A stretch of 64,000 bases of DNA from Xiphias gladius. Its lineage: Eukaryota > Chordata > Actinopteri > Istiophoriformes > Xiphiidae. Each line of letters starts with the position of its first letter. Within the stretch, counting starts at the first letter, position 1. A model generated the notes under the pieces. The model was not told where the DNA came from and did not search any database. It saw only the letters and a program-made list of their open reading frames with translations. Location of the stretch: the NCBI RefSeq assembly GCF_016859285.1, contig NC_053400.1:25566001-25630000 (forward strand), in the 5' to 3' direction. Position numbers and translations under genes: made by a program. Below are positions 3,601-56,456 of the stretch, one piece after another.

Positions 3601-6397
3601 TGCCCCAGACAAGTATTGAGGAAGGCTTGGCTTGGAGCTGCCTGTTCTCTAACCCACTGAATTATTGTAAGAAGAGAAGGACATTTATTTTTTCTATAAC
3701 ATAATTTTACCAGTGGTGTTTGGGATGATATATAATTCGTGGTTACTAGAGATTTTATACCTTAAAATGTCTTTTTACGTAGACGGGAAACTACATTATA
3801 CTTAACACGTTGTCTGTATTGTTAGGCGAGTTAGCTGAGTTCTGTCGTCCAGCTGTTGAAGTGGACATTAATGTGGACCAAGTTTCACAACAGAAAGTAA
3901 GCAGTAACGCGGTGACTGTCTAGAAAACAGTAAGGATCCAGTGTTACACTATAAACGGAAAATGTCCCAGTGATATCCTGGCACATCCGAAGAGTCAGAC
4001 GTCTCTCTCAGTAACACAGCACAATACTGGAAACAATGATGAGCCAAATATACAAATAAAACCTGAGACCGGATAAAAAAAACCTTCCATTTATTTCAAC
4101 ATAATTAATGAACTTCTCAATTAAATGAAGTAATTCCTCATACAATTTTTGGATAAACCCAAAACAATGCTATTCTTTTGCCTTTTGACATGCCATACTC
4201 TAACTGATTCCTATAACTATAACTGATTTTGCCATAATTGCCAGGACTCTTGAACAACATATCAACTCAGAGATATTCTAATAAATTTGAAATAAATTCT
4301 TTTTATGGATGGCACTAGGACAATATTATTTGAATTTAGATGTCCATATTTTGTGGATATCGTCAGCTAATCACCAGGTCGTCTCAAAAGTTTAACTTTA
4401 TTCAGCTTGACAAATTTTTTTTCCGGCCTGAAATAGCTTCTGCAGAGGTGAGTGTAAAATAAAGTTAGTCAACATGTGTACAAATGTGGATGTGGAAATA
4501 TGTGGAAAAACAATAGTGTGTCTTTCTGCACCACGCTGTCATTTCTCACTTCTCCAAAATGGACACAGACAGGAGCTTCCCCATGAAAACTCATAATCTC
4601 TCACACCACTATTATTGTTATCATTATTATTATTGTTGTTGTTGTTGTTGTTGTTACTACCGCACACACCTTAAAATCTTTGTGAAAAATGTTGTGTGTG
4701 CTTCTCTGGCTGCTGTTTCCTGCACGTAACCTTTATGAATGAAGCTTTAGTGAGTCAGTGGTTTCCACGGTGTTGCCAAGGAACTGTAGCAATGTTCTGT
4801 CGGTACAGTATGTGACAATAGAGTGAGGTCTATCTTTAGATATATTGGCATTGCTATTGGCCAACTAAACTACATGTAGTTGCCAGTCTATTGGGTACAC
4901 CTAACTAAAACTAATGCAGTCTAATACAACAGTCCTGCAATAAATCCTACATCCATGAAGGTCAACTTTATGGTAATTTTGTAGGGCGGCAGTTTGTGGC
5001 ACTGTTTGTAATATTTTGGCCACCCCATTTGCTGTAGAGTCGATTTAACGCAAAAATGAAAAGGGAGGGTTGTATGTTGGTGTTCGAAAAACAACGGGAA
5101 GATATTGTCGTTTGTCCCCCGCTGTTTTGGCCCGTTTATTAACGAGGACAGCAGCAGTGGGTCTGACACACACAGTACCCATAGCCCCTGCGTTAAAACT
5201 CACAAACGCCTTCTCGGACCCATAACTCAGCAAAATCTGAACACACATACATAAGACGCATGTATTTGCCGAAAATGTAAACAAATATAGGATTTAAAGG
5301 GGGGCTCAAGTTGTAGCCCACAGTATAATTTACTAGATCCATGGCAACATTAGACTTCCTGTTTACATCCCCCAAAGCATCATGGGAATTGGTGGGTTTA
5401 AAAACTGCAATATTTCTCAAGGAGAAATGTAGCTGATCTGTTAATGGTGTAACGATTTCAAACGAGCACAGCTCTTAGAAATTATCTTTGCATTAAATGG
5501 TGTTTTCAGATTTGGTTTTTCAGATGGGTTTTTTTTTTTATAGAACTATAAACGACTGCTTCAGACACAGGCAAGTGTAAAAAGTAGAGGACTCTGTTTA
5601 AACAGAAACGAGATGAAATTAAATAGACTGTGGAAGTAAAGGGGGCAAGGATAAAAGTACTAAACTGTCTTTTGTATAACCTGTCTGATCCTTTCACCAG
5701 GATTAATCCTGTTCAAACATTTTAATGATCATTACTCCCTCAAATATTCATAACACCACCAGGCTGATGTTATCTTCTGGACAAGGTTTGTTTTCGGGGG
5801 CCCTCATTTTCTACATTACTTCCTCAAATTCAACAGGGGTATTGCCTTTACTGCTAATAGTTACAAGATCAGTTATAAGATATTATTAAACTACCTTTGG
5901 GTGGCCAGATTGTCCGGACATGTATCTGGTTGGGGTTCATTCTACTCTACCATTATATCTGCTTTTCCCTTTTAGCTTTTCCCCTCCAATGGATCAACTG
6001 ACCACATAATGTCTGGAAAAAGAGCTGCAGAACACCTTGAATTTAATTCATTAACAACTTATTAACATTTACACAGACAAGATGAATTGTTGTAAAAGAG
6101 GACTTGTTAAGATTTATAATTGCAGTTGAGTTGGGTATTTTGGCTGATAGCCTATTATTATGATTATTATTGTTATGCCTTTTGTTAATACAATTCAAAC
6201 CCAAAGTGAGGAACCACCAGGACTAAAAAACAGTAGTCAGAAATGACTCACAATGGACCATAATTGTGCTACGTGTCTGCTAGATTTGCAAATAAGCAAA
6301 CTGTTTGCAAACAAGTACGCGACATGAACTAAAAAGGCGGTAATATGTCAGTGTTTTGTTTTCAGCTTGTTTATGCTGCCCCCAAGGGGCCAAAAAA

Positions 6398-6453
<56 letters not shown>

Positions 6454-8239
6454 AGGTACAGGGCCATTGTGAAGCCCTTGGACATCCAAGCATCAAAAAC
6501 CACTACCAGCATTGTCCTGAGGGCGGCGCTCATCTGGCTCTTCTCCCTGGTCCTGGCAATCCCTGAGGCCATCTTCTCTGACCTCCACACCTTCAACGTC
6601 ACCACTAATGAGAGCTTCGTCACCTGTGCTCCTTATCCCCACGCTGGGGAACTGCACCCTAAGATCCACTCCATGGCCTCCTTCCTCATTTTCTACGTCA
6701 TTCCCCTGCTGGTCATATCTGTGTACTACACCTTCATCGCCCGGAGCCTGATGAGGAGTGCCTCAAACCTGCCTGTGGAGGGAAACATGCACGCAAGACG
6801 ACAGGCTAGTGTTAAAGCTGTCACTAGCAGTGTCGTAACCCAGTTTGTGATATACTGCGGTCATTTTGTTTTATTTAGTCCGTTAATTGTGTTTTTCTAA
6901 AATGTTTTTAGTTTCATTTAGGCCAAACATGGAGTAATGGCTGGTTTGAAGCAGTTGGCCTAAAACTAGTAAAAAATGAAATTACAGAGAAAAAAATATT
7001 AAATTCAAAGACTTAAAATACTGGAATTAGCCCCTTATATACCTGCCATGTGTTTGTGTCCTTTAAAATGTAGCATGTAGCTCCAAATAATGCCAGGGAC
7101 AGAACCTCAAAGACCTCAACGGTAGCTACGGCTCTGGTCATCAGGGTGTATATTTTTTTGGCTAATGTTGTAAAAATTAAATTTAGATTTAAAAAAAATT
7201 TTTTTTTTTAACTTTTTTGATGTTTTTAATGTGTCTTTTATTTACTAGCATTGGTCTTTGGTTTTAAAGTTTTTTCAATAACCCACAGGTTGAATCTAGA
7301 AAGCGCCTGGCCAGGACGGTGCTGGTGTTTGTTGTTCTCTTTGCAGTCTGCTGGCTTCCCAGTCACGTCATCTACTTATACCGCTCCTATCACTACTCCC
7401 AGGTAGACTAAATCAGTTATTGACTATATTTCTGATAGAGCACAATTGTGTATTTGTTTCTGTCTGTTTGTATACACTAGGAGTGTAACTGGAGGTTCTT
7501 AGTCAGATCTATACGGCTTCATTTAATGTATCAATATGTAACTGCTGGCATTTATATTTCTCCCTAAAAAGTATAGAAAATAACATTTGTAACATAATAT
7601 TCTAACCATGTACGTAAATGTATTAATCCGTTATCAACTGTTAATGGTCAACTTAGAAATGGATAGTGGAATGGGCTATAACAGTGGGCACTGTGAGGAT
7701 AATGGCAAGAGAATTTAAAGTTGGTCTGGAGGGTCTAATAAAAAGTTGGACATGGCCATAATAACTCATGGGGACATACAGTATTGCATAATTTTGTTTT
7801 TGAAAAGTTTCTACATGATGTTCAGATTTAAATAAAGCATCTGGACGAATATTACTGTAAAAATTCTGATCCTGTTGTTCAGAACGCATTCATGTCGGAA
7901 TAGTGTATTTGTATTTGTTGTGTCTCGACTCTCCACCCTCTGTCTTTCCCTTGCCAGGTGGACACCTCACTGGTTCACTTTGTGTGCAGCGTCGTGGCTC
8001 GCATCCTGGCCTTCACCAACTCCTGTCTCAACCCTTTTGCCCTTTACCTGCTGAGCAAGACCTTCAAGAAGCAGTTCAACCAGCAGCTCTGTTGCTGCTG
8101 CCGTATGATCCTCAAACACTCCTCACAGAGCCCGACACATTTCAACACACGTGTGACCTCCGTCCGCAGCACACATTATTCCGTGGCGAGTCTTAGCATG
8201 ATCAATGGCAGACAGATCTATCAGGAGGATTATGTGTAA
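1..8239 (+). CDS. grpr: Gastrin-releasing peptide (bombesin) receptor, 5' partial
   Basis: This is a class A GPCR for GRP/bombesin, a plasma-membrane receptor that family knowledge couples to Gq and calcium signalling. Coding pieces are 1-52 (end of exon 1, TM3), 6456-6804, 7289-7402 and 7958-8239 (stop TAA). Splice phases agree throughout. The DRY-type motif is split over the first junction (ADR/Y). The exon at 6456 encodes TM4, ECL2 and TM5, including [12 protein letters not shown] and NLPVEGN. The exon at 7289 has the TM6 CWLP motif. The last exon has NPFALY of TM7, a palmitoylatable CCCC cluster and a C-terminus [12 protein letters not shown]. Similarity is closer to GRPR than to NMBR or BRS3 as I remember them. 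The donor after 6804 is GC rather than GT. The last coding part is split by an intron at 7403-7957, which human GRPR lacks to my knowledge. The start codon, TM1 and TM2 lie left of the window. Confidence 0.95.
53..6455 (+). other. grpr intron 1 (6.4 kb)
   Basis: The intron runs from the donor gtaggc to the acceptor at 6454-6455. I see no supported exon in it. It contains a (GT)n run at 584-624, a GC-rich patch near 2325-2440, a (GTT)n run near 4628-4655 and a tetranucleotide repeat that runs into the acceptor. The remaining short open frames have no recognisable protein character. Confidence 0.8.
6398..6453 (+). repeat. (TATC)n microsatellite forming the grpr exon 2 acceptor tract
   Basis: About 13 copies of a CTAT/TATC tetranucleotide end at the AG acceptor (6454-6455). 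They take the place of an ordinary polypyrimidine tract. Confidence 0.95.
6805..7288 (+). other. grpr intron 2 (GC-AG)
   Basis: The donor reads acag/gctagt and the acceptor acccacag/gtt. Both are in phase 0 and keep the family reading [11 protein letters not shown]. The intron is AT-rich, and nothing else is seen. Confidence 0.8.
7403..7957 (+). other. grpr intron 3, between TM6 and TM7
   Basis: The donor is cag/gtagac and the acceptor ttgccag/gtg, in phase 0. It separates ..YRSYHYSQ from VDTSLVHF. No other feature is seen. Confidence 0.85.
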
Positions 8240-44405: not shown

Positions 44406-47400
44406 TTAAAGCCATAGTAGGCCTTGCATCTGTCGAATATACTCTTCATTTTTAGATTTCCCCCCACTCATTTCAGAAGCAGCTCCACTGTCCCGGCGCA
44501 TGATGTCCTCGGCGATACGCATGGCGGCAGCCCGTCCACCAGCCAGGTTTACTGCATGAGGTCCAACCTGTGTGTGTGGTGGGGGGGATAGGTTGGGGAT
44601 GCATACGCTGTAAAATAATTGTACGGACTGTTGTTGAGACACCAAGACCCTATATAGAAGACCTACCTGAAGCGCGGCGTACTGCCCCATCAGGTAGAGC
44701 GGGCACCCCTCCGCCCACTGTAAGCTTTCTGATATGCACGGCCAACCATCTATCACCTTCATGGGGGACAAGCCGGACACATTTTATGATTCTATTAGTC
44801 TTACGTCGTGAATGTAGAGCACATGGGTTGGTTTAAAAAATGACCTCATTTTATGCTCTTGTCCTTATCTTGCCATCCTTTAATTTTAACGCTGTTTTCA
44901 ACCAACCGAAACTTTTCTTCTGCTCCCCTGTCATACTTCTTCACATAAAAACATTTTTCTGTTTAACCCACCTGAATTGGGAATTCCTTTATCACCTCAG
45001 AAAGCAACTGGTCCTCTCTCACATCAAGCTTGCAGCCGGTGGCGAGCCAGATCATATCTCCAGTCCAGTGGTCCCCAGTGCTGAGGGAAAGACTCCAGGC
45101 CTGGCTCCTGTAGCACCAGCTGGCTTCACTCACCTGGACAGTTGGATGACATTCAGGATAACTCACCCCACATCGCATTATGTTACCTCACTTGTCCTCA
45201 TGCTATCTCAACCTAAGCTACCTCTCATGTGACCTTACCTCATTTTACCTAACACATTCTCATCTCACCTCAATTCATATCATCCCATCTCACCTCCCCT
45301 TCGCATCAACTCACCGTATCTACTGATTTTCACCTAACCCAAATAGGTGAAATCTCAGCTCACATCATATTATCTCATCTAACATCAACCGTCCTCATCT
45401 TACCTGAGCTGACCTCACCAGATCTAATTTTCGTCTCACCTGACCTCTCCTTATTGCACCTCAGTTTATCTCACCTCATGTCATCTCAGCTTCTCTCATC
45501 TGACCTCAACTGACGCCACCTCATCTCATTTCTTCTTACCTGACCTCACCTTATTGTACCTCACTTTGTCTCACCTCATCCCGTCTGACTTCCTCCCATT
45601 TTAACTCATCTGACTTCGTCTCATTCAATCTCACCTGACCTCGTCTCATTTTGACTCACCTCATCTCATTTTCCCTCCTCTCACCTCATCTCACTTCAGC
45701 TCATGTCCCGTTACTTTACCTGTCCTCATCTCAGCTGACTGACTCCCGTCTTATCTCACTGTAACTGACCTCATCTCATCTAATTTCACCTGCGCTCACA
45801 CACGATCTAACCTCATCACATCTCGTCTTGTCTGGTCCCATCTCATCTTATCTCATGGCATTCACTTCACCCTCAACTTATACCCTGTGGGATGCACATG
45901 CACCAGTACCTCACAGTATGTCCTCACGTCCACCTGTCCATTCAGTATGAACGGCTGTAGGTGGATGTACGCCTCTGGGGTGACGGCCCCGCCTTTCCTT
46001 GCCTGGTGAATCATGGCCAGGCGTTTGTGAAGACTCCGTTCATTATAGAACTGGCGTAGGTAGGCTTGACCATCCATCTTGATGCCGTGCTCCACATGGG
46101 AGTAACGACCCACCAGGCTCTCCACGTCGCCCACATCAAACTGTTTTAACTGTAGAAGAAAGAGAGAAGATGGACATGTGTGGTGGATGCAGACAGGTAT
46201 GTCTACAGTAATTCCTTATGGTTGGTCTACATGCAGTTTCACACTGTCACTAGACCTGGAGGTGCTTCCTCATGACCCATATCACATGGCTGGCACCTTG
46301 CTGCAGGGCAAGTGAGACGACATGAGCACTGGTCAGACCTCCACCAACTACCATTACTCTCTGCCCTGTCTCACACACTACACACAATTCTAGACAGACA
46401 TAGGCATACGGTACTTGTAAAGGAAAGTGCTGCGATTAGGATAGGGGATCAAACAGCCACTGAAGTCTTCGGAAGCACAGAAACCTCAGGTGAAAGCAGA
46501 GTATTATTCAGTATTCTGAAAATTCTGGCAAATGTGCCAAGGCGTTAAGGCATGTGGCCTAAAGTCTTTGCTTAGCAATACCAATTATCCTTACAGCTCT
46601 TGGACACTTGCTAAAACATTGTTTGCTTTTCAGTATCATTATGATATGATGACCCTCAGAAGAAATCTGACTTACCGTGAGTGGGCAATGTCTCTTTCTG
46701 TCTCTGACACTCTGTTTCTCTAAGTTCTTGCTTAGAATTTGAAAGATGATGCATGAGGTGCACTGTGTGCTGCAAACGCTCCTCCGGGTAGCTCTCTCCA
46801 ATGCTTTTCACCCATGAAGGGATGTTTGCCATCTGAGCACGGGTTGGTCCTGTTGCCATAACGACCCGGTGAGCTTTTAGGATGATGCCTTCTTGAAGTT
46901 GGACTTGAAAATACTTCACTCTCTTCCTTGCTCCATCTCCCTTCCTTTCAATCACTCTCATGGCCTCACTCTCTGTTTCCCGCTCCGTCTTACAGCCATT
47001 CTCTTCTTCTGTCTCTACCTTGTGCTCAATAATGGGGAGGATGTGCTCCACTGTTCCCTTCACCAGCACTTTGTCCAAGTTGTATCTCTTCACCTGTATG
47101 TTCAGATTCATCAAGTCAAACACCTCAGGAAATAGCAATGCTCAGATTTTGGTTCTCATGCCACTTAAAGGATAACGTCAGCATCATTAAATATTTTTCC
47201 ATCTAACTGTTAACAAATCCCCATGAAGACCCAAACCAACAAACTGTTAGTCCATTCTCAAACAGCCTGATGATCCATGAGTTAATTTGATCAATTAAAA
47301 AGTGGCTGCAGTGGAAAAGAGCAACAAGATAATAATAATAATATCCTCAGAATGAACGTAAAGTTATAGAAACTAAAATAATTTGCTTATATGCTTCAAA

Positions 47401-47774
47401 GTAAATGTTATATAAATATTTTAAAGCCCCATTTCCACCTCCGCACCACCAACAAATAAAACATTATAGCGGTTCCTTAGACCCGAGAGGACCTGTAAGA
47501 ACCTCCACTTGGAGGTAACATATTGCTGGGTGTATTGCTTATTGTTTATTAGAAGCTTGTAATTATATGATACTATATTCTTCCTACAGCCTAATTTTAA
47601 AATATTTAACCTCGAAGTGTTTGTTAAGTATAACTATATAGGTGCTTTAGCTGCAGTGTTGCATGCTTTGGGGAACTTCTTTTATTCAGTGGGCTAATAC
47701 TGTAAAGACATGGTTTCAAAATTATTCATTGTCTTCAAATGTAGAGTAAATGTAACATTAAACATACCATCCAG

Positions 47775-47840
<66 letters not shown>

Positions 47841-49008
47841 AATACACTATATTTCTAACCTGATCTTTAAAGAAATCCACACTTAGTTTGGTTCCTGGCA
47901 GACTGAAGGATAAACTCTTCTTAAGTGTAGAGGTGATATTCAGTCGTTTCCTCTCCTTCTTGCCAAGTCGCATGTCATTGAAAAATGCATTTTCGTCCAG
48001 AATGTAAACCTGGTCTGGAAGACTATGAAGCTCTGCTGATCGATCACACTTCAGAACAAACTCCTGCAGCGCTTTCTGTAAAGGGAAACATACACACGTG
48101 CTTATTTACATTCATATCGCAAAAGCACCTTCCTGTTTCCTACTTCGGGCAAAGTTATCTGTGTTTGTACTTACCTTATTGAAAGGGTCTGTGTGCACTA
48201 GTGTGTGTGAGCGCAGATGAGGGATGTTAAGGGCTGTGAACTGGCTCTCCCACAAGGCAGTCCACTCTCCATAGGAATCTACCACTCGGAGACACAGCGG
48301 GGGACAAACGGCCCTCTCTGATGTCCTTGACTTCCCTGTTTGCTCCTCCAGTGCCATTCCTGCAGAGACTAATCACAATCTACATATTACTGAATTGTAA
48401 GGCCACATAGGAAGCAAATGGTCTTTTTGATTATGGTAGGTCATATGCATGTGAAAATTCCCAAGTAGTAACGTTGACAAAGGAGCCCCTCATTTATTTT
48501 TTGTTTTATTTTGTAAGTAAGCAGAAGTAACCTGGTTCCAGACCTCTGAATCCTCAATAAATGTTCCAATTCAGTCTGATTATCAGGCCATTACAAAACT
48601 CATCCCTACCAGGATCGTCGTATCAAATCAACAATATAGCCAAAATGTTTGGAAAGACAAAACTCCGAATTTGAATAGTAAGCCAAATTTTGAGCCACTA
48701 AGTCAACATCCAGACCTAATATGGATGGAAAGTCAAAATTATAAGATTGTATCACATAATTATGATTTCGTAAGTAAAGCCAAGCATACTGTACCAGTTG
48801 CTGCTCTCGACTTCTTGTTGCCACCGCAGCATCTGTTGTTGGATGTTCCCGGGTTTGGCTGAGGCCTCGGAGGGTCCGAGCAGGACGGGGAGAGGGCCGA
48901 GTCATTTACAGGGTCTGAGTTCGGGTCAGGGTCTGGATTGGATAGCAAGCTCGCCAGGGTCAAGGCATGGGGACCACCCCCTATTATTAACACATCCAGT
49001 ATCACCAT
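44406..49008 (-). CDS. FAD/NADP-binding monooxygenase-like protein (bacterial ornithine/lysine N-hydroxylase-like fold), function unknown
   Basis: Nine exons on the minus strand, all phase-consistent and without stops, encode about 608 residues: 48795-49008, 48175-48359, 47860-48075, 46676-47123, 46256-46365, 45910-46149, 44972-45133, 44667-44756 and 44406-44567. Residues 5-20 (DVLIIGGGPHALTLAS) form an N-terminal FAD-binding Rossmann motif. HLRSHTLVHTDPF lies near 115-127 and VVMATGP near 292-298. A second dinucleotide motif, RVMVVGGGLTSAH, lies near 357-369, DMIWLATGCKLDV near 498-510, and GQYAALQVGPHAVNLAGGRAA towards the C-terminus. This order (FAD motif, ATG, NADP motif, ATG, then a G-x-x-A-L-x-x-G-P-x-A end) fits flavin N-monooxygenase-like proteins of bacteria. 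No signal peptide or membrane segment is evident. A highly charged insert (about 237-275) is extra. The ATG follows TTTCAG, so a 5' UTR exon is likely. Substrate unknown. It lies between pir and il1fma. Confidence 0.88.
44973..45132 (-). other. Flavoprotein exon with second ATG motif
   Basis: Interior of exon 7 of the flavoprotein gene, listed because it marks the conserved GDMIWLATGCKLDV block and lies beside the pyrimidine-rich repeat. Donor and acceptor are canonical. Confidence 0.85.
45134..45909 (-). repeat. Degenerate CTCAY-rich tract filling flavoprotein intron 6
   Basis: From about 45180 to 45870 the plus strand is a continuous decayed run of short units such as CTCACCTCATCTCATC, with few guanines. 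It reads like an old pentamer-based satellite. The intron is almost nothing else. Confidence 0.85.
46677..47122 (-). other. Long central exon of the flavoprotein with charged insert
   Basis: Interior of exon 4, the longest exon. It encodes VKRYNLDKVLVKGTVEHI, then a Glu/Lys/Arg-rich stretch, then the VVMATGPTRAQ block. Confidence 0.8.
47124..47859 (-). other. Flavoprotein intron 3 with (CA)n tract
   Basis: The donor at 47859-47858 is followed after about 20 bases by a (GT)n run, seen as CA at 47777-47839. The rest is AT-rich. Confidence 0.8.
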
Positions 49009-52643: not shown

Positions 52644-55600
52644 GAATATATATATATGTGTGTGTATATATATATACAAAATGGGGTTTATGAATAGTAA
52701 ATAATGTTTTTAATAATGTTAACTGGACCTGAAATGATTAGTTGATTAACTGATTTTTTGATCGACAGAGAATAAAGTGGCAACTATTTTGATATTTTGT
52801 CATTTATCGCTCCAAAATCCCAAACACTGGCAGGAGAGGAGACAAGCTGATGCAGATAAACGGCATGGACCTGCAGGATCTCACACCTGAGGAGTTAGCA
52901 CAAATGTTAGCTGAGGGTAATCCAATGCTGGTGAGTTCGTGGGCTTCCACACAGTCTTGCACATTGATCATTGTCAAAGTAAAGTTTCTATTTAGGACTC
53001 TATTCTTCTCTCTATTCTACTTCAGTCTTTTAGTCCGAGAAGGGTGAAAGTCACAGCTTCTCCAGGACGCATTGTTGCATAAAACAGTTGTCACTCAAAC
53101 TGCCGCTCATTATTTTAAGAGTAAAATCCACCATGCCAAACACTGCCACTGTCTGCTGGACGAACATGGCTCCAAGGAGCAAGTCTTCAGAAGTATAGAC
53201 CCAATTCTCAGCTTATCTTATACTGTATATTCTCCTAAACACCACGGTAATGTTTGTTAATGAGTGAAACTACAATTTGTACTGACAGAGTAAGAAGAAG
53301 ACTCTTCTCCCCCTGTTACTCTATAATTGCACAGTAAAAAAAAAGGTTGTGAACAATATTTTTCTAAAACGTAAGATTTGTTTCTAGGTACTATACCTTG
53401 TTTTTATATTACATTACATTGTTTTGCACTTGAAGTAGGTCAGGATGACAAGACGCTGCACTGTCTACATTTAGGTATTCACCAGTGGAAGAACACACAT
53501 AGCTACTGTATCTACTCTTTGTGGTTCATGGTGGAATTTTAACACAGTCAATACCCCACAAAGTGTCAGGCACAAAAAGACACGGAGTCAATGCTCCGTC
53601 TGACCCGACATCTGCTTTCTGTCGACCCTCTCCTCGGGTTCTCTTTAGAGGGTGCACAAGGCGAAGAGGGTGGAGGAGCACAACGAGCAGACCTCCAGGG
53701 ATGAGGAAATTTTACGACCCGTCTCCAGAGAATCCACAATTCTCAGTTTCAGCATGGAGATGACGAGAGAGGAGGAGGTTGATTGGGGAGGAGAAGTAGG
53801 AAAGGATGATGGGGCTACAGAGGAGGAGGTTTGTCAAGCTGAAAATGAGGATAACGGGGAGAGGAATGATCTGTTCATCGTTGCCATGAAGAAAACCAGT
53901 ATCTCTGTGGTGAGAGGAAGGGGCTGCGACACCGAGAGTCCCTGTGAGGGATGCCATGGGATAGGATGTAGCTTTAATGACATTGTCATGGTGGCAGAAT
54001 CCAGCACGGTGATGCTTGGTGAGTACGCTTTTTCCTTTTCTCCTCTGCTCTCTTCCCTTAGCTCCGATTTGGTGTCCCAAATTTTAATTTGTTCTACATT
54101 ATAATATACTCATAAGAGTACAACATATCAAACTTTAACCAGGAGCAGGGAAACAAACAGTAGAGTCCTGGACTCATTTGCATCGCAGTCCCTGGTGTTT
54201 ACACACTCCACTAACCTTTATCAAGATGGAGACATGACAACATTCACTGTCAATCAATATTAAGAAATATTAAGAAATAAGAACTAAAAAAGTAGAAAGC
54301 TGAATCACATGACCAAAAAATCCTTTTTTTTCAGAAAGCAGACAAGGTATATCAGACAATATCAAAGACCAAAGGTGGAAGAAGAAGTCAGATGTTTTAC
54401 TTAAGTAAAAGTAGCAATACAATGATGTAAAAATAGTCAATTACAAGTAAAAGTGGCAGCTGCTCGAGATGGAGCTAGTTTTAGCTACTTTTTTAGTCCA
54501 GTGGTTCCCAACCTTTAAACCTTTAAACTCGCCATCAACCCTTGTTCTTTTTTTTTTCTTTCAGAGGGGATATAAATGATAAACTGCTTGATTGTTCTCT
54601 GTGTTACTTTCAGTCCCAAGAGGAAGTAGCAGTTTCAGAAAGGAAAAGGTTGAACTGTCAAACATCTCAATCAAACACGTGGCAACCCATCAATTCCTCC
54701 GAGGTCTATGTTCGCAGAAAACCCTCTATGCTTCACCAAATCCAGGTTTGTCATTCAGAGCAGCACGCAGCGTCATCGTACAAAATAATCACCTGAATAA
54801 TTTGAATTACAATTATCACAGATGAGTTTAATTTCAGATGTTCTCTTCATCCATTCATTATCATGTGCAAATCAATGTTGATTATCCTACAAAAAACGGT
54901 AATTTGTTCTATTGGGGGAATTGATTAGAAATTCCTTTTTTTTCTTTACATGTTTCTTAAAAAATTTTTTATGTGTGTGTGTTCAGAGAGGATCACCATC
55001 TACTACTACAAGTCAAACATTATGGACAGGTCTTTCAGGGGAATGCCAGTGGTCCTAAACTTTACCGACTCCAACTGCTTCCTCAGGTGCAGCAAGGAAG
55101 GAGAGAGGGTGGTCCTACAAGTGGAGGTAATAACAATTACTGAGTGAGTTCATGTATTCATAGTTAGATATAATGAACGAGGGAAACGACTGAATTCTTA
55201 GGCACTTTATCTTGCTTCTGCATTTCAGTCTATCTTGAGTTACAGCTTTTTTTAAAGAAAGAGGCAGGATGTAGCATAAAAAACAGATATTATCAGTCGG
55301 ATGAACCACAGTCATCATCAACATCATACTGTTGTGCTGGGTGACATGTTGCTCGTTCATGTTGAGCGTGAACACTCTCGGTTATTTTGTGTCAATCCTA
55401 CATACACAATCCTGCTGCTGTAAATGCTCACCCGCGCACCGAATGTGTATTAATCCGCCTCTGAAAAAAAGTCCCAACAAATGCACTATGTACTTCCGTT
55501 ACCAAGCGCATTTCTTATAATGTAACAAATGCAAAAGTTACAATGAGTAACGTGTCAGTGTATATGAACATCCGAAAATAATTAAGAATTCGCTGACACT

Positions 55601-55689
55601 CCTGTCACTTTGAAAGTTTTACTTTAAAATTGGTTAAGTTGCAAGTTTTATATGATACGACAAGCAGATAATAATAATAATAATAAGCA

Positions 55690-55736
<47 letters not shown>

Positions 55737-56456
55737 AGGAAGTTTATTTATTTTGCATTTATTGAAACAAGCGATTACAAAGTGCTTCACAAGGACAAAA
55801 TGAAAATGGACACAGAAACTAGGAAAAACACACAACGTACATGTTACATACTGTGTATTTCACATATACTGTAAATACACACATGCAGACAAATTTACCC
55901 GAATTGAACAAGGTTACCAAAAAGATGACTTAAACTTAATTCTAAAGAGGAGATCATTTTGAAATAGCATTAAATATTCATGGAACTCCATCAAATAGTT
56001 GTTGAGATACTTCAGCCTGGACTAAAATGGTGGACTGATCGAATGGCTGATGTCCAACCCTACTATTGTTTCAGGAAAGTAAGAGCAAAGTGATTTTAAA
56101 TGGATATGCGTTATCGATACTTAAAATTATTGAGGTGAAACCTTTTTGGTTTAAATTTAATTGTGAGTTAAAAAAGTTGATTATTAGAATTCCGATACTA
56201 GGAAGCAAAGTAATCAACACCTTTGTCGTTGCAGACGTGCGAAAAGCAGAAGCTGACGCAGATCTCAAAGACTGATGAGAGCGCCCTCTCCTTTGTCTTC
56301 TACATGAAGTCTGACCGCACAAAACAAATGAGGTTTGAGTCAGTGCTGCACCGCGGATGGTTCATCCAAATAGTCAACACGGACTCAGTAGTGAAGCTGG
56401 AGACCCTGGATGGAGGGAAGGAAGAGCACTCATTCCTCTTTATCATTCAGAAGTGA
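51866..56456 (+). CDS. il1fma: Interleukin-1 family member with N-terminal PDZ-like domain
   Basis: Seven phase-consistent exons encode 363 residues: 51866-51877, 52001-52119, 52834-52930, 53649-54018, 54614-54745, 54987-55126 and 56235-56456 (stop TGA). Residues 5-80 look like a PDZ domain (ILIVHQL, then GDKLMQINGMDLQDL and TPEELAQMLAEGNP, RVHKAKR). An acidic, low-complexity linker (about 81-148) follows. The IL-1/FGF-type beta-trefoil begins near DLFIVAMKKTSISVV (residue 150). Its C-terminal FESVLHRGWF (324-333) matches the IL-1 family signature, except that Arg replaces the usual Pro. A cysteine cluster (C169, C175, C178, C183) sits in the trefoil start. There is no signal peptide, as in many IL-1 cytokines. 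It resembles the fish-specific IL-1 family member (il1fma/nIL-1F). Roles are likely in innate immunity; receptor not known from sequence. Confidence 0.88.
51878..52000 (+). other. il1fma intron 1 (short)
   Basis: The donor AAG/gtgggt follows only four codons (MDLK). The acceptor is aaatgtcag/gat, in phase 0. Confidence 0.75.
52120..53648 (+). other. il1fma introns 2 and 3
   Basis: The exon at 52834-52930 separates the two introns. A CA/TA-rich microsatellite lies at 52613-52675. No other exon or repeat family is recognised. Confidence 0.7.
54019..56234 (+). other. il1fma introns 4-6
   Basis: Exons at 54614-54745 and 54987-55126 interrupt this region. It includes a trinucleotide (AAT/AAG)n run at 55668-55740 and a short family C repeat at 55965-56060. 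Confidence 0.7.
55668..55740 (+). repeat. (AAT)n / (AAG)n trinucleotide microsatellite
   Basis: An AATAAT run passes into a GAAGAA run of about 50 bases. Confidence 0.95.

Follow-up and report, generated by a model that had tools for sequence, protein, structure and literature searches.

The 64,000-nucleotide stretch of the Xiphias gladius genome analysed here (the window, on contig NC_053400.1) carries on its minus strand a gene of nine coding exons, which runs from an ATG at 49008 to the end of a stop codon at 44406 (Table 1). All the junctions are GT-AG, the phases join in frame and the spliced product, of 606 residues, contains no internal stop; the intact spliced gene announced in a preliminary description of this DNA was thus recovered, with a product slightly shorter than the roughly 608 residues given there. 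Exon 6 offers two candidate in-frame donors, and the downstream one was taken for the 606-residue model. The start ATG sits immediately 3' of TTTCAG, and for this reason a 5' UTR exon further upstream is likely. The spliced protein contains GGGPHA (residues 10-15), VMATG, GGGLTSAH, LATG and GQYAALQVGPHAVNLAGG, that is, the two Rossmann motifs, the two ATG-type blocks and the C-terminal block that had been recognized before.

Table 1. Coding exons of the X. gladius flavoprotein gene, in window coordinates.
Feature	Position	Strand	Content
Exon 1	48795..49008	-	ATG, FAD motif GGGPHA, then a low-complexity insert specific to fish (alignment)
Exon 2	48175..48359	-	LRSxxxVHxDP block; R121, S122 and H127 retained
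Exon 3	47860..48075	-	Coding; residues match the prokaryotic family
Exon 4	46676..47093	-	RVVMATG block and IPSW; charged insert, absent in prokaryotic rows
Exon 5	46256..46389	-	GGGLTSAH, the NAD(P) Rossmann motif
Exon 6	45910..46149	-	Altered FDxDPGWLGPK loop (fish FDVGDVESLVG..., insert of about 14 residues) and HQARKGGAVTP
Exon 7	44972..45133	-	Second ATG-type block, LATG
Exon 8	44667..44756	-	GQYAALQ
Exon 9	44406..44567	-	VGPHAVNLAGGRAA block, C-terminus, stop codon

The gene is located at about 25.6 Mb on the contig, between a pirin-like exon on its left, which scored 24.0 bits with Pfam Pirin (slightly below the cut-off of 26.1), and ACE2-type exons on its right (Peptidase_M2, 113.8 bits; Collectrin, 99.5 bits), in agreement with the position between PIR and ACE2 proposed previously. 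In a survey of vertebrate ace2, pir and grpr have been reported among the ace2 neighbours in ray-finned fishes, and the main text of that survey contains no word starting with 'fad' (PMC6278350). The closest relatives found for the protein are bacterial, as would be expected of contamination or an assembly artefact, but nine spliced exons flanked by two fish-type genes contradict such an origin, as the introns had already suggested, and we consider its probability negligible. No second copy was found among the best candidates of an exon-by-exon protein search of the 691-Mb genome: the strong matches were the gene's own nine exons only, and the next two had E values of 0.09 and 0.16. In this genome no well-characterised vertebrate enzyme, which would have spoken against the original assignment, came out as the best match. 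Additionally, Pfam Lys_Orn_oxgnase gave a single weak match in the same genome (contig C6, E 0.29, below cut-off), and one cobW-domain exon was present, on C19.

When the spliced protein was searched by tblastn, the best match was a cyanobacterial plasmid gene (E = 9e-47, query residues 97-581, about 30% identity). This match, together with residues aligning with and identical to the same prokaryotic family in each of the nine exons, indicates that the gene is more than a product of chance, and it bears out the bacterial-type two-Rossmann flavoprotein of the preliminary description. Among 72,556 plasmid records, 11 had a match to the fish protein (seven cyanobacterial, three bacillar and one haloarchaeal); the best six were all cyanobacterial, with 74-80% query coverage, 27.5-29.9% identity and E values from 9e-47 to 4e-35, and identity to the Leptolyngbya member was 38-40% across aligned columns. 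A scan of genome contigs with the fish protein returned one locus, in Haloferax elongans, and says little on chromosomal bacterial relatives because its exact peptide patterns are fish-specific. Viral contigs yielded no relative in searches with query proteins P0001 or P0006; in a phage collection, two Staphylococcus records match P0001. No vertebrate member of the family was found in the openly licensed literature searched.

To place the fish protein we used an alignment of 19 rows, whose relatives were plasmid-borne except for one haloarchaeal contig, and from which Calothrix L007, a gene fragment only, was left out. In the resulting tree, the fish protein grouped with the cyanobacteria apart from the outgroup (support 99/97), and haloarchaea (100/100) and bacilli (85/82) formed groups of their own. 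A reduced tree again joined fish and cyanobacteria (100/99), with the fish either beside or within the cyanobacterial rows. AU tests, whose groups were chosen after the tree had been seen, disfavoured placing the fish outside all prokaryotic ingroup rows (p 0.013) or with the bacilli (p 0.0025). The fish branch is long (1.22). Of 42 positions 90% conserved in 16 prokaryotic rows, a count that leaves out the outgroup rows Mesorhizobium and Deinococcus, the fish protein keeps 36, including both cofactor motifs, and has lost those at residues 125, 133, 140, 198, 369 and 400; exon 9 keeps 6/6. Of 191 positions invariant in the four cyanobacterial rows, 108 were kept. On the evidence of alignment and trees, the fish protein groups by descent with cyanobacterial "FAD/NAD(P)-binding proteins", with full-length homology to the family associated with Zur and COG0523.

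The FDxDPGWLGPK loop of cyanobacteria and bacilli was not found in the fish protein, where F, D, a later D, L and G are retained, W, P and K are lost, and the DPGWLGPK core is replaced. Haloarchaeal members likewise lack this loop and have an EADPSWINW type instead; the loop is thus no hallmark of the family at large. Long disordered-looking inserts were also present in fish exons 1-4. The rebuilt loop and the long branch suggest that the substrate or the partner may have changed in fish.

The family is FAD/NAD(P)-binding, of the Pfam NAD_binding_9 and Pyr_redox_2 type, and belongs to the Zur response in cyanobacteria and bacilli, whereas in haloarchaea it is found beside COG0523 zinc GTPases. 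The cyanobacterial relatives lie in clusters of zinc-starvation genes (COG0523 GTPases, hemB-II, folE-II, S14 paralogues and metal transporters), and the annotated surroundings of the prokaryotic relatives, which are zinc-starvation-like, also include metal ABC transporters, hemB/folE paralogues and TonB/ExbBD. A cobW-type ORF occurred in 10 of the 15 ingroup loci (stretches of 10-17 kb), the other five being without one in the stretch examined, and in neither of the two outgroup loci. Pfam confirmed cobW in 9 of 10 neighbours tested, the exception being a G0131-type hypothetical protein of PCC 7117 with no Pfam match. Across the 16 plasmid loci an S14 paralogue was found in five, hemB in four and folE in three; the annotation tables of the Salinigranum, Mesorhizobium and Deinococcus loci contained no zinc genes. 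Furthermore, 11 of 59 genomes of Halobacteria had a relative, and a cobW ORF was present in 9 of the 16 haloarchaeal loci (flanks of about 1.4 kb), or 9 of the 11 genomes; these loci were counted apart, and at least two of the genomes seem to duplicate loci of the plasmid count. No hydroxamate-siderophore genes were noted beside the relatives in the annotation tables of the prokaryotic loci.

Upstream regions were scanned with Zur-box consensus palindromes for cyanobacteria and for bacilli, which were not found spelled out in four papers on Zur. A Zur-box-like palindrome with at most two mismatches was found 31-68 bases before the start of all seven full-length cyanobacterial and bacillar genes; the Calothrix fragment, outside this count, has no box directly before it. 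The palindrome used for cyanobacteria is similar to a Fur box. The seven loci contained 16 such sites (seven before the flavoprotein gene, four at hemB, two at cobW, one at a permease, one in a stretch without a listed gene and one inside an antiporter gene), and a second-order Markov control gave 0.05-0.1 sites per locus (5 loci simulated). Six haloarchaeal upstream regions had no such box (at least four mismatches), and Salinigranum, Mesorhizobium and Deinococcus were omitted from the scan. Zur boxes are bacterial and do not apply to the fish gene.

In Picosynechococcus PCC 7002, mutation of zur and treatment with TPEN have each been reported to raise expression of the FAD gene G0132, alongside hemB-II, folE-II and G0131; TPEN also caused iron limitation (PMC4628125). 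Gene counting to G0137/G0138, rather than a locus-tag table, identifies G0132 with the gene of our PCC 7002 locus (L004). This SYNPCC7002_G0132-type protein of the Zur regulon is homologous to the fish protein over nearly its whole length, and both have the two Rossmann motifs and the LRS..VH, ARxGG.xTP, LATG and GPxAxNxxGxRxA blocks. It differs from the fish protein in being bacterial, intron-free and about 420 residues long, with FDADAGWLGPK and a Zur-box-like site 36 bases upstream, whereas the fish protein has four inserts and the rebuilt loop. In addition, Corynebacterium glutamicum Cg0795 has been described as an oxidoreductase under Zur repression whose gene diverges from cg0794, a COG0523 gene, with a common promoter region, and its authors propose a link to the COG0523 GTPase (PMC2823685). 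Cg0795 resembles the prokaryotic family in arrangement and regulation. No biochemical function or enzymology of any family member was found in the literature searched, where the prokaryotic family is recognized as a zinc-starvation gene solely through its regulation.

SidA binds ornithine through K107, N293, N323 and S469, and 6xbb is the structure of DesB, a cadaverine N-hydroxylase (PMC8009421). Searched as a single sequence, the fish protein gave 28.7 bits with Pfam Pyr_redox_2, above the cut-off, and 14.8 bits with Lys_Orn_oxgnase, below the cut-off of 21.3; seven of 14 family members reached the latter profile at E 0.001. Single sequences matched no solved structure significantly (best E 0.37 for the fish protein and 0.012 for Leptolyngbya), and the fold link thus depends on the family profile. 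Profile A2, built from cyanobacterial, bacillar and fish rows (405 positions), had as its best match the putrescine N-hydroxylase 7us3 (E 1.4e-10, profile 3-334 of 405). With the broader profile A1, 129 chains reached an E value of 0.001 or lower, cyclohexanone monooxygenases first and over a shorter stretch; 6xbb and the ornithine N5-hydroxylase PvdA (3s5w) aligned over most of their length, ranked behind the shorter Baeyer-Villiger monooxygenase matches. The three N-hydroxylases have the FAD and NAD(P) Rossmann layout of the fish family and align with its profile over most of the chain, but they serve siderophore synthesis, the similarity is at the profile level only, and 7us3 has GGGQSGA where the fish protein has GGGLTSA. 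GGGQSA/G is the NADPH-motif signature of siderophore-type N-hydroxylating monooxygenases. The N-hydroxylating flavoprotein of the preliminary description therefore stands as a link at the level of the fold, whereas its assignment to siderophore-type ornithine/lysine hydroxylases (SidA, PvdA, IucD) was rejected on the Pfam score, the altered motif and the zinc context of the relatives. The matches to N-hydroxylases and class-B-type monooxygenases fit an NAD(P)H-dependent, class-B-like flavoenzyme. We propose, on these profile comparisons, that the fish protein would be an NAD(P)H-dependent flavoenzyme inherited from the zinc-associated family, and probably of the monooxygenase type.

The best explanation of these data, which we regard as evenly poised, is that the gene represents the zinc-starvation (Zur) flavoprotein family, intact, in the nuclear genome of a fish, with a predicted flavin chemistry and a speculative zinc-ligand role. 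The protein would bind FAD and NAD(P)H, NAD(P)H would reduce the FAD, and a flavin-oxygen adduct may then oxidise a small molecule that contains nitrogen or sulfur, as happens in its distant relatives, the diamine and ornithine N-hydroxylases. More speculatively, the product or the reaction might help to make or free a zinc ligand under zinc shortage, within one pathway with the COG0523 GTPase, whose vertebrate counterpart is ZNG1/CBWD. A zinc role in fish is something that we infer, the zinc context itself belonging to bacteria, and we rejected homology by itself as a ground for assigning a zinc function. The full form of this proposal, in which vertebrate lineages retaining the gene beside PIR and ACE2 keep a cyanobacterium-like flavin monooxygenase for zinc scarcity that works with the ZNG1/COG0523 metallochaperone to make or free a zinc ligand, seems to us unlikely.

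The fish line could instead have left the zinc response, its protein N-hydroxylating diamines or amino acids (polyamines, cadaverine or similar substrates) in a part of metabolism unrelated to zinc. The best full-length profile match among solved structures is indeed a putrescine N-hydroxylase, 6xbb and 3s5w align over long stretches, and the loop altered in fish lies beside the substrate region; however, Lys_Orn_oxgnase stays below cut-off in fish and is reached by only half of the members tested, the GGGQSG motif of 7us3 is absent, and the context of the prokaryotic family is zinc and not siderophore synthesis, and we hold this alternative to be rather unlikely. Matches of A1 to ferredoxin-NADP reductase-like, thioredoxin reductase-like and FSP1 chains, together with the metal-homeostasis context, would suit an NAD(P)H:FAD oxidoreductase passing electrons to a metal complex or a quinone-like acceptor rather than an oxygenase, but these matches cover mainly profile 96-241 and not the full length. 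The invariant columns of A1 contain no conserved cysteine, hence no redox cysteine pair, and a disulfide reductase of the thioredoxin reductase type was rejected; electron transfer to a metal complex or quinone-like acceptor appears decidedly improbable. Very improbable, in our view, is a protein put to new use as a flavoprotein without catalysis or as a scaffold that binds nucleotides: the rebuilt loop with its losses and insertion and the disordered-looking inserts of exons 1-4 would be compatible with it, but the fish protein has retained the two Rossmann motifs, the two ATG blocks and, at its C-terminus, the GPxAxNxxGxRxA block.

Should the zinc link fail in fish, the gene would still encode a vertebrate flavin N- or S-oxygenase without an assigned substrate. 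With a vertebrate member of the zinc-starvation family, a flavoprotein that adjoins COG0523 zinc GTPases in bacteria would become amenable to study in an animal, by zebrafish knockout and as recombinant protein; if the proposed reading is true, such a member would also show how a bacterial-type metal-stress enzyme entered animal biology.

Plus-strand exons lying between the flavoprotein gene and ACE2 gave a weak PDZ match (18.8 bits, below the cut-off). Further along, Interleukin-1/18 was matched twice, at 18.6 and 24.0 bits, both weak and short of the cut-off of 25. Provided that these exons form one gene, it is possibly a fish member of the IL-1 family that also carries a PDZ portion. The GPCR exon might, at a guess from synteny, be GRPR.

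Among the prokaryotic relatives, a palindrome scan placed a Zur-box-like palindrome 38 bases upstream of the Staphylococcus flavoprotein gene (locus L006), and a Na+/H+ antiporter operon also lies upstream of this gene. Furthermore, several haloarchaeal loci carry two adjacent flavoprotein-family copies (L008, L015, L021/L035, L022/L036 and L025/L034).

Features located in the window and in the Staphylococcus locus
Feature	Location	Strand	Basis
Rhodopsin-type GPCR exon	window 6328-8200	+	Pfam 7tm_1, 69.6 bits
Exons with weak PDZ, then Interleukin-1/18 matches	window 52793-56453	+	Pfam
Zur-box-like palindrome	L006 5420-5434		2 mismatches to the Zur-box consensus
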